A stretch of DNA of 64,000 nt, taken from Candidatus Nitrosomarinus catalina. Its GTDB lineage: Archaea > Thermoproteota > Nitrososphaeria > Nitrososphaerales > Nitrosopumilaceae. Below are positions 34,443-39,081 of this stretch, in pieces; position 1 is the first letter of the stretch; each line of letters begins with the position of its first letter. Location of the stretch: contig NZ_CP021324.1 in NCBI RefSeq assembly GCF_002156965.1, forward strand, positions 1,190,681 through 1,254,680, in the 5' to 3' direction. The position numbers were made by a program, and so were the translations under genes. Below the pieces are notes generated by a model that saw only the letters and a list, made by a program, of their open reading frames with translations, made no database searches and was not told the DNA's origin.

Positions 34443-34721
34443 TTAACGGTTAGATAGGCTTTTTGATTTAACAAATGCCCAGATCTTTTTGGTCATCTCA
34501 CTAGGAGCGATTGGTTTCTTACCAAATACTTGTTCTACAGTTTCTTGACGACCTGCAAAATTAATGGCGTATCCTCCAAATGCTGGTTTCTTTGTTTTTG
34601 ATTTAGTAGCGGCCTTTCTTTTAGGTGCAACTTTCTTTTTTGTTGCAGCCTTTCTTTTAGGTGCAACTTTCTTTTTTGTTGCAGCTTTCTTTTTTGTTGT
34701 AGTTTTCTTTTTTATTGCCAA
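34443..34721 (-). CDS. Lys/Ala-rich tail plus partial SWIB-like domain, candidate chromatin protein
   Basis: The 92-residue protein has a histone H1-like N-terminal half made of KKKAATKKKVAPKRK-type repeats (about 2-48). The C-terminal segment KPIAPSEMTKKIWAFVKSKSL (about 70-90) matches the first helices of SWIB/MDM2 domains. The protein stops where a full SWIB domain would continue, so the domain is about half length. There is a TTG start at 34721. It probably binds DNA through the basic tail; whether the half domain folds is uncertain. It lies alone between the hemerythrin-like gene and the riboflavin operon. Confidence 0.75.
   Translation of the reverse strand: MAIKKKTTTKKKAATKKKVAPKRKAATKKKVAPKRKAATKSKTKKPAFGGYAINFAGRQETVEQVFGKKPIAPSEMTKKIWAFVKSKSLSNR
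34612..34683 (-). repeat. Two perfect 36-bp tandem repeats
   Basis: Bases 34612-34647 and 34648-34683 are identical. They encode the 12-residue basic unit (ATKKKVAPKRKA register) of the SWIB-like protein tail. This suggests recent in-frame expansion. Confidence 0.92.
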
Positions 34722-34757: not shown

Positions 34758-35399
34758 TTACACTTTGATGTAATTTATCACAAGATGATTTTTGAGCCTC
34801 TTAACAGATTTTAGTTTCAAATTAGGTGAATTAACTATTTTGGCAAATCCCTTTCCTTCAACTAAAGAGGTGGCATCATTTCCTCCAATTAGATAAGGAG
34901 ATAAAGTGATAATTAATTCATCAAAAATATTATTTTTAATAAATTCCCAATTTACTGTACCTCCACCTTCAACTAAAATAGTTTTAATTTTTTTAGTAGA
35001 AAGTTTTTTCATTAATAATTTTAAATTAACAGAATTTTCTCCAGAAATAATTATTTCTACTGGTAATTTTTTTAATTTTGATAGATTTGCTTTACTAATT
35101 TTTTTAGAAACAGCAATTATAGTTGGAATTTTATCACTTGATTTAATTATTTTAGAATTTTTTGAAATTGTACCTTTAGAATCTAAAATTATCCTTGTAG
35201 GATTTTTTCCTTTTGTATAACGTACTGTTAATAATGGATCGTCTTTTAACATAGTATTCTTTCCAATAAGGATTGCATCCACTTTTGATCTTAATTTATG
35301 CAATCTAGTACTATCTTCTTGGGAAGATAACTTAGAATCATTTGATCTTGTAGAAATTTTTCCATCAATTGAAATTGCTGCACTTAAAATGATATGCAT
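34758..35399 (-). CDS. arfC: 2,5-diamino-6-ribosylamino-pyrimidinone 5'-phosphate reductase
   Basis: The RibD-type reductase domain is about 213 residues. It shows the start MHIILSAAISIDGKIS, the loop VDAILIGKNTMLKDDPLLTVR, PTRIILDSKG, and the glycine-rich ILVEGGGTVNWEFI that binds NADPH. In archaea this enzyme reduces the ribose ring of the pyrimidinone to ribityl before deamination. I chose the ATG at 35399, which lies 1 bp after the stop of the amidohydrolase gene; a longer frame would overlap it. It is the last gene of the riboflavin operon. Confidence 0.93.
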   Translation of the reverse strand: MHIILSAAISIDGKISTRSNDSKLSSQEDSTRLHKLRSKVDAILIGKNTMLKDDPLLTVRYTKGKNPTRIILDSKGTISKNSKIIKSSDKIPTIIAVSKKISKANLSKLKKLPVEIIISGENSVNLKLLMKKLSTKKIKTILVEGGGTVNWEFIKNNIFDELIITLSPYLIGGNDATSLVEGKGFAKIVNSPNLKLKSVKRLKNHLVINYIKV

Positions 35400-35400
35400 A

Positions 35401-36591
35401 TTAGATTTTTCCATGTACAATTTTTCCTCCAATCATTACTGCTTTGATTGTTGATTGAGATGCTCTATGTACAATAGATGCATAAGGATTATGCATAGGT
35501 TCTAAATCTAATGCATGTTTATCAAGAAAAATACAATCAGCTATTTTTTTTGTTTGAATAACACCAATTTCTTTTTTTAGAATTTTTCCAGCATTGACTG
35601 TTGCCATTTTAAGAATTTCTTTGGGGTCTATTCTCTTTTTTTTAATTCCCATAGTTACCTTCCAGAGATAATCCATTTCACGAAACATGTCTGGTGAATT
35701 AATCATTACATTATCTGTACCTAATCCTAATAGACATCCAGCATTTTGCATTTTTTCAATATCAGGAATTCCTTCAGATAGTGAGGAATTGGCTCTAGGG
35801 CAAATAATTATGCCTCTAGTTTTCTTAGATGTAGCATCTAGATCTTTTTTAGAAGCATGAGTCATGTGAATCAAAAAATCAGGTTTTAATGATAATGCTC
35901 TAAGAGTTTCTGATTTTCCAGTAATTCGTTTTGATTTTTGAACACTTTCTATAGTTTCAGAAGAATGGATTGCTCGTAATTTTTTTGTTTTTGAATACGA
36001 TTGTAATACAGATGTACTATGCTCATTAGCACCACTAATACCAATTCCATCACAAATTTTTACTAAAGATGGAAGTTCAAGAGTTTTTTCCTTTGGAAAA
36101 GGGCTATTTTTTTTAATTTCTGATGTGCTTTGGTGAAAATCTAGTCTTCCTAGAAGAATTGTACGAATTGGCAAATCATCAACCGCTTTTTTAAGTAATA
36201 TTGCACCATCTAGTCCACCTTCTCTGAAATCAACAAATGTGGTAATACCTTTTTGAATCATAGAGCGACATGTATTTTTCATAAATGTTGAGAGATATTC
36301 ATTAGAAGTGTTTTTCAAAATTTTAGATTTAATTCCAAACATAGGATGTATTTTTTGATTTACAGTACTATTCAATGTAATATCTTTACCAATTGAATCA
36401 GCAATATGCGTATGAGAATTTATGAATCCTGGGATCAATAGTAATCCTTCACAATCTATTGTATCTTTTTTTGATTTAGATTGTATGTTCTGATTAATTT
36501 TCTGAAATTTATCATCTCTAATTTGAACATCAATATTTGAAATGAAATCTAAATTTTCACCAATTAATGCACTGATATTTTTTAATAACAT
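35401..36591 (-). CDS. Amidohydrolase-superfamily deaminase-like enzyme inside the riboflavin operon
   Basis: The 396-residue protein has all metal and catalytic positions of the cytosine/guanine/MTA-SAH deaminase group: His60 and His62 (NSHTHIAD), His209 with Glu212 in IHSSET, His245 (MTHAS) and Asp293 (LGTDN). CPRANSSLSEG precedes the last motif, as in MTA/SAH deaminases. Its ATG shares one base with the stop of GTP cyclohydrolase III, and its stop is 1 bp from the reductase start, so it belongs to the pathway operon. Archaeal riboflavin synthesis needs a pyrimidinone deaminase with no accepted gene; this is a strong candidate. A role as formamide hydrolase (ArfB function) is the other option. 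Confidence 0.88.
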   Translation of the reverse strand: MLLKNISALIGENLDFISNIDVQIRDDKFQKINQNIQSKSKKDTIDCEGLLLIPGFINSHTHIADSIGKDITLNSTVNQKIHPMFGIKSKILKNTSNEYLSTFMKNTCRSMIQKGITTFVDFREGGLDGAILLKKAVDDLPIRTILLGRLDFHQSTSEIKKNSPFPKEKTLELPSLVKICDGIGISGANEHSTSVLQSYSKTKKLRAIHSSETIESVQKSKRITGKSETLRALSLKPDFLIHMTHASKKDLDATSKKTRGIIICPRANSSLSEGIPDIEKMQNAGCLLGLGTDNVMINSPDMFREMDYLWKVTMGIKKKRIDPKEILKMATVNAGKILKKEIGVIQTKKIADCIFLDKHALDLEPMHNPYASIVHRASQSTIKAVMIGGKIVHGKI

Positions 36592-37337
36592 TATAATTCA
36601 TAAACATCAGGTTTCTGTTTTCCTGAATCTCGTATTTCACGTATAGTATCAAGAGATTTTGTGGCTAATTTAGCTGCATTCCTACTAGTTTTAGCATTTC
36701 CAATACCACAGTTCAAAGAAATTTGGTCATCATTTTTAATTATATCAATAAAATTTTGAACAGAATTTTTTGCATCATCACTTGCAATTACCATATAATT
36801 ATCACCGCCTAGAAAAAATGAAAGAGAATTTTTTTCAATGAAATATCTGCCAATTTTAGAATATAATTCAAAAACTTTTAATGAAATTTCATATGGAGAG
36901 TTATCTTTTCTTTGTGATTTTAGATCATCAACATCCAAATGCATTATTGAAACATCAAACTCTAAACTATTATCAATGAACCCATAGATACTATGTTCTT
37001 CATTTAATATCACACTATTTTGTTTACCCTCATATGCTTTTAGATTAGCATCAAATGGAGATTTTCCATATCCAATTGAAATAGTTAAACTAACTTCAAA
37101 TGATTCTTTAACGGATTTTTGAATTTCAATATGATCATTTAGAGTAAGACCATTTGATACAACAAAAAATTCATCTGATTTATTTAAAAATACCAAGCAA
37201 TTTTTTGCAGAAAATAATTCTTGTACTTTTTTGTAAAGAGAAGCCTGCAACATCTGTAATTCATGTTCTCTGTCACTACCTAATGTTAAAGTCCAAGGCC
37301 CATATTCAGTAATTTTTAAGATACTTAATTGGATCAT
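36591..37337 (-). CDS. arfA: GTP cyclohydrolase III (archaeal, FAPy-forming)
   Basis: The 248-residue enzyme belongs to the archaeal GTP cyclohydrolase III family, which turns GTP into the formylamino pyrimidine (FAPy) nucleotide that starts riboflavin and F420 synthesis. Two cyclase-like palm domains are visible. The first contains NKSDEFFVVSNGL and SIGYGKSPFDANLKAYE; the second contains FFLGGDNYMVIASDD (metal-binding Asp) and NCGIGNAKTSRNAAKLA. It sits between ribH (2 bp away) and the deaminase-like gene (1-bp overlap) in the riboflavin operon. Confidence 0.92.
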   Translation of the reverse strand: MIQLSILKITEYGPWTLTLGSDREHELQMLQASLYKKVQELFSAKNCLVFLNKSDEFFVVSNGLTLNDHIEIQKSVKESFEVSLTISIGYGKSPFDANLKAYEGKQNSVILNEEHSIYGFIDNSLEFDVSIMHLDVDDLKSQRKDNSPYEISLKVFELYSKIGRYFIEKNSLSFFLGGDNYMVIASDDAKNSVQNFIDIIKNDDQISLNCGIGNAKTSRNAAKLATKSLDTIREIRDSGKQKPDVYEL

Positions 37338-37339
37338 TC

Positions 37340-37750
37340 TTAAATTTTTTCCAATTCTTTTGAAATTGTAACAAGTGCTTCGATAGCTCTTTCTGCAACA
37401 GGTCTAATTCGGGCATAAGCGTGTCTTTCTTGCATTCCAGGTCCAGTTATTCCAAGAGAAACAGGTTTTTGATATTTTAGTGATAAATCAGTTAAGGATC
37501 TAGCTGCAGCATGAGATATCACTTCATCATGTTTAGTTTGTCCTTTTATTATAGCACCTAAAGTTGCAACACCGTCAACTTGTTGATTTTGTAACAATTT
37601 ATCTACAATTATAGGCATATCATAGGCTCCAGGAACCTTACAAACATGAGATATTGTTAATTTCATAGAATCTGCTTTTTCTTTTGCAACTTCTAACATG
37701 CGGGATGTTACCTCTTCATTAAATTCTGAAACTACAATGGCTATATTCAA
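37340..37750 (-). CDS. ribH: 6,7-dimethyl-8-ribityllumazine synthase
   Basis: The enzyme condenses the deaminated pyrimidinedione with dihydroxybutanone phosphate. The 136-residue protein has the family landmarks IAIVVSEFNEEVTSRM, VPGAYDMPI, the phosphate-binding GAIIKGQTKHDEVI with the catalytic His, and SLGITGPGMQERHAYAR. It lies 2 bp from ribB and 2 bp from arfA. Confidence 0.95.
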   Translation of the reverse strand: MNIAIVVSEFNEEVTSRMLEVAKEKADSMKLTISHVCKVPGAYDMPIIVDKLLQNQQVDGVATLGAIIKGQTKHDEVISHAAARSLTDLSLKYQKPVSLGITGPGMQERHAYARIRPVAERAIEALVTISKELEKI

Positions 37751-37752
37751 AA

Positions 37753-38418
37753 TTAATTCACCTTAGCGTATTCCAAAAGTTCTTTTCCATCAATTAATGG
37801 AATTCCATTTTGTTTTCCAAATTTTTCTGCTTTATCTACAGATAATGCAGTATAGGTTTCTGCATCCATCATTTCGCAAATAGCTGTTACTGGAGTCAAT
37901 CCTGCAGTCTTAGCCAAGTATACAGACATTTCTGTATGTCCTTGACGTGATGCCACTAATCCTTCTGATGCAATCAATAAAGGAACATGACCTGGAGTTT
38001 TAAATGATGATGAGAATTTTTTCTGTTTATTTTCAACTTTGTAGATATTAGCCATTTCCAAAATTGTTAATGCTCTGTCTTTATCTGTGATTCCTGTGTA
38101 AGTTTGATAATGATTTACAGATAATGAGAATGTTGGGTAATCGCCATACGGAGCTAAACCCATTATCATTTCTTTATTTGACATAGATGAACTTGCAAGA
38201 GTATCATGCATGTATTGTAATTCGAGCGATTTTGCAAAATTATTTTCAAGAGCAATACATAGTAATCCACCTGCATTCTGTCTCATTCGTGCAACATGCT
38301 CAGGAGTGATAAATTCTGCTGCAACAACCATGTCAATTTCATTTTCACGTCCTGCTGAATCAAATAATAATACAAATTCCCCACGTTTAAGAGATTCAAG
38401 TCCAGTTTCAAGTGACAT
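37753..38418 (-). CDS. ribB: 3,4-dihydroxy-2-butanone 4-phosphate synthase
   Basis: The enzyme makes dihydroxybutanone phosphate from ribulose 5-phosphate. Signatures are LLFDSAGRENEIDMVVAAEF (acidic metal loop), MRQNAGGLLCIAL, HYQTYTGITDKDRALTI, FKTPGHVPLL and RQGHTEMSVYLAK. The ATG at 38418 is chosen over a TTG two codons earlier. At 221 residues it is a monofunctional RibB without a GTP cyclohydrolase II domain, in keeping with the separate archaeal arfA. Confidence 0.95.
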   Translation of the reverse strand: MSLETGLESLKRGEFVLLFDSAGRENEIDMVVAAEFITPEHVARMRQNAGGLLCIALENNFAKSLELQYMHDTLASSSMSNKEMIMGLAPYGDYPTFSLSVNHYQTYTGITDKDRALTILEMANIYKVENKQKKFSSSFKTPGHVPLLIASEGLVASRQGHTEMSVYLAKTAGLTPVTAICEMMDAETYTALSVDKAEKFGKQNGIPLIDGKELLEYAKVN

Positions 38419-38490
38419 ATACAAAAATTATTTCAATCTAGGTATATAGTTTACTAAAAAATGGGTAATTACCACTATAATTGTAGATAA

Positions 38491-39081
38491 TTAGGCTTGC
38501 TTTAAAATATACTTTCCAAGAATGTCAGTTTCAATATTAACCTTATCTCCAACTTTCTTAGTATGAAAATTTGTAATTTCTATAGTATGAGGAATTAAAG
38601 AGACGGATGCCAGTGTTTTTTTAATATCAACAACAGTTAAACTAATTCCATCAATTGCAATAGAGCCTTTCTTAACAACATATTTTGCTAAATTTTTTGG
38701 AACTTCAAAGTATACTTGAACTTCTTTTGGTTTTTTAACAATTTTTTCGATTATTCCAACACCATCAACATGTCCTAAAACAAAGTGACCCTCTAATCTA
38801 TCACCTGCTTTCAAACTTCTTTCAATATTTACGACTCCACCAACTTTTAGATTACCAAGATCAGTTTTCTTTGTAGTTTCTTCAATCATTTCAAAAATAC
38901 ATTTAGATTTTGACAGTTTTGTTGCAGTAAGACATACACCATTTAGTGCAACGCTTTGTCCAATTTTTAATCCCTTTACTTGTTTACCCAAGTCAATAGT
39001 CATTTCAATTGCACTACGATTTTTTGTAATTTTTGAAATTTTATTTACTTTTCCAACTCCTTCGACAATACCTGTAAACAT
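38491..39081 (-). CDS. ribE: Riboflavin synthase, alpha type
   Basis: The enzyme dismutates two lumazine molecules to riboflavin. The 196-residue protein is a tandem lumazine-binding repeat: MFTGIVEGVGKV and SVALNGVCLTATKL in the first half, GHFVLGHVDGVGII and GSIAIDGISLTVVDI in the second. The bacterial-type synthase is found here in place of the shorter archaeal RibC seen in methanogens, which hints at old gene exchange. It heads the riboflavin gene run, about 70 bp upstream of ribB. Confidence 0.95.
   Translation of the reverse strand: MFTGIVEGVGKVNKISKITKNRSAIEMTIDLGKQVKGLKIGQSVALNGVCLTATKLSKSKCIFEMIEETTKKTDLGNLKVGGVVNIERSLKAGDRLEGHFVLGHVDGVGIIEKIVKKPKEVQVYFEVPKNLAKYVVKKGSIAIDGISLTVVDIKKTLASVSLIPHTIEITNFHTKKVGDKVNIETDILGKYILKQA

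Follow-up and report, generated by a model that had tools for sequence, protein, structure and literature searches.

The window, as we call the whole 64,000-nucleotide stretch of Candidatus Nitrosomarinus catalina DNA analyzed here, contains a riboflavin operon in which an amidohydrolase gene (35401-36591) stands between arfA and arfC. The question that this locus raises is which step of the pathway, if any, the amidohydrolase serves. With a probability of roughly 0.86, we believe that the gene encodes the host's riboflavin-pathway deaminase and is orthologous to MJ0699. The best reading is that of a zinc-type enzyme that would deaminate 2,5-diamino-6-ribitylamino-pyrimidinone 5'-phosphate. 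An earlier note had put forward a deaminase on the basis of the letters of the DNA, and linkage, co-occurrence with ArfA, the absence of a RibD-type protein, active-site conservation and the predicted fold all agree with that inference. The operon is composed of the following genes:

38491..39081, minus strand: ribE, riboflavin synthase of the bacterial (alpha) type (NF006767/TIGR00187, over cut-off)
37753..38424, minus strand: ribB, DHBP synthase (TIGR00506, over cut-off)
37340..37750, minus strand: ribH, lumazine synthase (TIGR00114, over cut-off)
36591..37337, minus strand: arfA, GTP cyclohydrolase III (GCH III), 248 aa (PF05165, 155 bits)
35401..36591, minus strand: amidohydrolase, 396 aa, ATG start, proposed deaminase (open reading frame; NF005552; PF01979; single genomic copy)
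34758..35399, minus strand: arfC, archaeal pyrimidinone reductase, 213 aa from the ATG at 35399 (TIGR01508, 200.9 bits, over cut-off)

In the window, the minus-strand order is ribE, ribB, ribH, arfA, amidohydrolase and arfC, and the genes are nearly contiguous. As the earlier note had described, the amidohydrolase gene shares one base with the arfA stop codon (base 36591 is the last of that stop), and a single base, 35400, separates its own stop from the arfC ATG. The other possible starts of arfC, an ATG at 35414 and a TTG at 35432, would run into the amidohydrolase gene. Pfam and NCBIfam identified the neighbours as GCH III, a RibD_C/archaeal reductase, lumazine synthase, DHBP synthase and riboflavin synthase. 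The gene is indeed built into the riboflavin operon, and since arfA and arfC flank it in all 24 genomes of the home family, with ribH and ribB adjoining arfA, the arrangement is not due to chance.

Regarding other genes of the window, the riboflavin synthase at 38491-39081 is of the bacterial (alpha) type, while two loci from other genomes (L181 and L183) carry instead a second gene of the lumazine-synthase family, which may be an archaeal-type riboflavin synthase. Positions 34443-34721 encode a small protein with a Lys/Ala-rich repeated N-terminus, a conserved-looking C-terminal part and no Pfam match.

Linkage to riboflavin and F420 genes

In six further loci, at 25-36% identity, the neighbour of the amidohydrolase is arfC, or else arfA and ribH. 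Of the 31 loci, 30 link it to one or more riboflavin genes, and the remaining one is a weak unrelated match. In a set of 80 ArfC loci of titled genomes, the amidohydrolase was next to arfC in 11, and 69, mostly from methanogens, had no adjacent amidohydrolase; arfC-linked copies were present in records of Nitrososphaera, Nitrosothermus, Bathyarchaeota, Hecatellales and others. Outside the home family, the gene lay at most 3.5 kb from arfA or arfC in 14 of the 24 genomes with ArfA, close linkage being absent in ten. Gene orders varied, including arfA-amidohydrolase, arfC-amidohydrolase and amidohydrolase-arfC, and in L181 the order was arfC-arfA-ribB-(second lumazine-synthase-family gene)-ribH-amidohydrolase. 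That the partners stay the same while their order changes speaks for a shared function and not for inherited synteny alone. The conserved linkage that the earlier note had proposed to look for is thus found throughout the home family and recurs beyond it in several orders.

Some of these loci also contain F420 genes. The order in L185 is amidohydrolase-arfC-cofG-cofH, and in L184 cofH/cofG adjoin arfC-amidohydrolase (cofG and cofH confirmed by NCBIfam in both loci). In L186, the amidohydrolase and arfC adjoin cofG/cofH genes that were recognised by eye, and in L164 cofE is close to the amidohydrolase. According to PMC8498797, FO synthesis uses 5-amino-6-ribitylaminouracil, a compound common to the riboflavin pathway. 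Because the FO (F420) and riboflavin pathways share this compound, the amidohydrolase should act at or before it.

The gene comes directly after arfA in the operon. Hence, one could argue that it encodes a deformylase that takes the formyl group off the ArfA product, the ArfB function that the earlier note had offered as its alternative. Amidohydrolases can cleave formamides, and the creatininase of the home genome lies outside the operon and below the ArfB cut-off (46 of 180 bits). The known deformylases, ArfB/BrbF, act in the same pathway but belong to a different protein family, the creatininases, and creatininase genes are found alongside the amidohydrolase: after arfC in L092 (where the contig end truncates the gene) and L112, and convergent to the amidohydrolase in L181. 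Besides, one creatininase gene, adjoining purU, is present in the home genome itself, and M. jannaschii also gives a creatininase match. Methanocaldococcus, the genus from which the characterised ArfB comes, has the amidohydrolase gene nonetheless. An archaeal ArfB is cited in PMC9478397. Regarding the protein itself, it has no PF02633 match, NF033501 is not among the NCBIfam matches listed (25 of 56), and its HxxE/H/D set is that of deaminases. With creatininase genes beside the amidohydrolase, we rejected it as a substitute for ArfB and regard a deformylase function as highly unlikely.

The sole creatininase gene of the home genome is located at 2559-3281 of L052, about 5 kb to the left of the window, immediately following a purU-like gene for formyltetrahydrofolate deformylase. 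Its best-scoring model is MftE (129 of 172 bits), and our guess is that it is the natural ArfB candidate.

Presence and absence across genomes

Among Thermoproteota outside the home family, we found the amidohydrolase in 24 of 24 genomes with ArfA and in 3 of 18 without it (Fisher p 8e-9, a value that overstates independence because the genomes are related). These 42 genomes were chosen for ArfC matches outside the home family, from a total of 52; the ten omitted all belong to family f9, which has 12 genomes with ArfC, and two of these ten (G056 and G093) carry a member of the amidohydrolase family. For the scoring, G077 and G113 were considered gene-bearing by their NF005552 matches alone (179 and 202 bits, respectively) and G071 despite a partial signature, while G106, G112, G118, G070 and G060 were counted as lacking the gene from the NF005552 search alone.

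The amidohydrolase and arfC were found together with no ArfA detected in three genomes, represented by loci L185 and L186 (G103 and G018) and L031 (G097). In L185 and L186, the presence of cofG/cofH after the amidohydrolase-arfC pair suggests another first enzyme. We did not find the amidohydrolase in other ArfC-bearing genomes without ArfA (f2, f22, f34, genus g36 of f21 and others). Two Bathyarchaeota with ArfC, G217 and G227, gave weak, paralogue-type NF005552 matches only, which counts against the deaminase reading. An ArfC-like reductase accompanied by neither ArfA nor the amidohydrolase was observed in G076, G088, G124, G142, G109, G049, G087, G051 and G125. Regarding Halobacteriota, all 80 genomes presented a best match of 217-422 bits, with the next-best listed match at 187 bits or less, save for second copies at 314-322 bits in two genomes. 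The 30 Halobacteriota sequences that were read have the residue signature described below, L229 being without R123 and E124. Finally, no relatives of the amidohydrolase were found in the viral contigs scanned.

The net reaction proposed here is that of the RibD/Rib2 deaminase, which has the cytidine-deaminase fold: the pyrimidinone ring is deaminated once reduction has taken place, as happens in fungi. Both fold and family of that enzyme are, however, unrelated to the amidohydrolase. The earlier note had called for a search for a separate RibD deaminase domain, and by the PF00383 search the home genome has no RibD-type protein. The single PF00383 protein detected resembles ComEB/dCMP deaminase (104.7 bits versus that model's cut-off of 219), and a RibD elsewhere in the home genome was therefore rejected. 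Pfam did not place PF00383 in the amidohydrolase either, and the domain was absent from 8 of the 27 amidohydrolase-bearing genomes of the Thermoproteota set, as well as from the M. jannaschii and S. acidocaldarius controls.

Family, active site and predicted fold

Against NF005552 (PRK07213, "chlorohydrolase"), the protein scores 322.1 bits over residues 2-387, with a cut-off of 294, and this is the sole amidohydrolase model that it passes among the NCBIfam matches listed (25 of 56). Pfam gave PF01979/PF07969 only, and the NF005552 search of the home genome (a single contig of 1.36 Mb, 98.9% complete) returned one gene. The family name "chlorohydrolase" is unsupported by the genomic context, both at 35401-36591 of the window and at locus L133.

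The deaminase pattern read in the earlier note is present as regards HxH at 60/62, His209-x-x-Glu212, Asp293 and the CPRANSS segment, but the invariant histidine, that of the HMTH motif, is His242 and not His245 (60 of 60 rows). The complete deaminase-type set (H60, H62, H209, E212, H242 and D293) was conserved in 60 of 60 family rows and in 47 of 47 further rows. D65, K88, E124, N294, E305 and R376 were also invariant in the 60 family rows, in which R266 (59), R149 (57) and R123 (54) were nearly so. In the 47 further rows, a count that leaves out L206 (G071, with its partial signature) and ten rows of paralogues or distant amidohydrolases, D65, K88 and N294 were present in all, E124 and R266 in 46, R376 in 45 and E305 in 42.

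The predicted model of the protein (pLDDT 95.7, pTM 0.94) places R123/E124, R149, R266 and N294 after barrel strands, on the expected active-site face, while K88 begins a helix. Its top structural matches were adenosine-type deaminases, with Z values of 43-44. Guanine and isocytosine deaminases (2i9u and 8is4, Z 41.8 and 41.7, respectively) have the same fold and came within about two units of the top matches, but they share 15-18% identity with the amidohydrolase and their substrates are free bases. The substrate cannot be read from the fold by itself, because the enzymes with the nearest folds act on rings of several types. Isocytosine and guanine do share the 2-amino-4-oxo ring element with the proposed substrate, so the deaminase chemistry is plausible, although unproven.

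Nucleoside and base deaminases are among the nearest folds, and the NF005552 model picked up no further protein of that kind in the home genome. Hence, it could be argued that the protein is such a deaminase, acting on 5'-deoxyadenosine, MTA, SAH or guanine, and that it sits in the operon by happenstance. Yet its scores are far under the family cut-offs for 5'-deoxyadenosine deaminase (NF005557, 103 of 522 bits) and guanine deaminase (69 of 375), and NF012037, another model of the 5'-deoxyadenosine/MTA/SAH deaminase group, gave 56 bits against a cut-off of 779. The DadD-type 5'-deoxyadenosine/MTA/SAH deaminases share the superfamily and the catalytic set, but are a separate clade with other pocket residues. 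In our unrooted tree, seven 5'-deoxyadenosine-type paralogues form their own long branch (100/100) among Bathyarchaeota-like rows, and all seven are without D65, E124, N294 and R376. Besides, a paralogue of this type exists apart from the amidohydrolase in Methanocaldococcus and in several other genomes, and the linkage and co-occurrence with arfA/arfC tell against a chance placement in the operon. On the sub-cut-off scores, the separate branch and the differing residues, we rejected an ordinary 5'-deoxyadenosine-type deaminase, and consider a nucleoside or base deaminase of any of these kinds very unlikely.

Another explanation is that the amidohydrolase serves this part of the pathway in a different way, either as the missing phosphatase or by deaminating a dephosphorylated or still-ribosylated intermediate. 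Phosphoesterases of the amidohydrolase fold exist. The phosphatase is also among the gaps in the archaeal pathway listed in PMC8305020. However, both the catalytic residues and the top structural matches are typical of deaminases and of other hydrolases of that barrel group that act on C-N or C-Cl bonds, with no phosphatases among the 50 structural matches listed. The many conserved basic residues, for their part, fit a phosphorylated substrate. We judge both versions of this explanation highly improbable, and keep to deamination of the phosphorylated ArfC product.

Earlier prediction for the family and proposed reaction

From the 24 genomes behind the titled loci, 11 matched NF005552 over its cut-off, the top one being Methanocaldococcus sp. 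SG1 with 560 bits, compared with 322 bits for the home protein. This model appears to describe the MJ0699/HVO_2483 family; the SG1 and home proteins have the same signature residues, at about 35% identity. No riboflavin gene adjoins the SG1 gene, whereas the home gene lies inside the riboflavin operon. The SG1 neighbours are instead genes for an MscS-type channel, the primase large subunit and DNA polymerase DP1, which we take to be MJ0700, MJ0701 and MJ0702 of M. jannaschii. Given these neighbours, the SG1 gene should be the MJ0699 orthologue, and the Methanocaldococcus member of NF005552 thus appears to be the orthologue of MJ0699.

The 2021 paper PMC8305020 reports that MJ0699/HVO_2483 had been predicted as riboflavin genes by Rodionova et al. 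2017. In its Table 6, the HVO_2483/MJ0699 row sits between ArfC and the phosphatase gap, so that the step is implied but unnamed, and the archaeal gaps that it gives are the haloarchaeal deformylase, which already has a candidate, the deaminase, whose candidate going by the order of the rows is HVO_2483, and the phosphatase. By implication, the deaminase assignment is already a published prediction for the MJ0699 family, and the idea is therefore not new for Archaea in general. In the literature searched, PMC8305020 was the only mention of MJ0699 or HVO_2483, and no experimental proof of the function of the family was found. The statement of the earlier note that no archaeal gene is accepted for the deamination thus stands as far as proof is concerned, but the family had already been predicted for this pathway, as PMC8305020 reports. 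What our analysis adds to the MJ0699 prediction is a member embedded in the operon, the recurrent linkage, the presence and absence data, the residue signature and the arguments against a deformylase.

According to the proposed mechanism, the protein would be a subtype-III amidohydrolase, a TIM barrel with the HxH/H/E/H/D set, in which a metal bound by His60, His62, His209 and Asp293 would activate water, while Glu212 and His242 would shuttle protons. The water would attack C2 of the isocytosine-like ring of the ArfC product, 2,5-diamino-6-ribitylamino-pyrimidin-4-one 5'-phosphate, and the departure of ammonia would give 5-amino-6-(5-phospho-ribitylamino)uracil. The family-specific basic residues Lys88, Arg123, Arg149, Arg266 and Arg376 may hold the ribityl phosphate. 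In this order of steps, we infer that deamination follows ArfC, and the product, once dephosphorylated, would feed riboflavin and, where it is made, F420.

More generally, it is likely that archaeal riboflavin/F420 deamination is carried out by an enzyme with an amidohydrolase fold that has no relation to RibD/Rib2 and is retained nearly everywhere that ArfA is, and that the basic residues mark specificity for the phospho-ribityl substrate, which would make the family-wide name "chlorohydrolase" wrong. The deaminase is among the last archaeal riboflavin/F420 enzymes without a proven gene, and, on the evidence from the operon and from co-occurrence, the choice comes down to a single candidate family and a single step. 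The residue signature separates the NF005552 family from the 5'-deoxyadenosine-type paralogues, and the misleading "chlorohydrolase" name in databases could be corrected.
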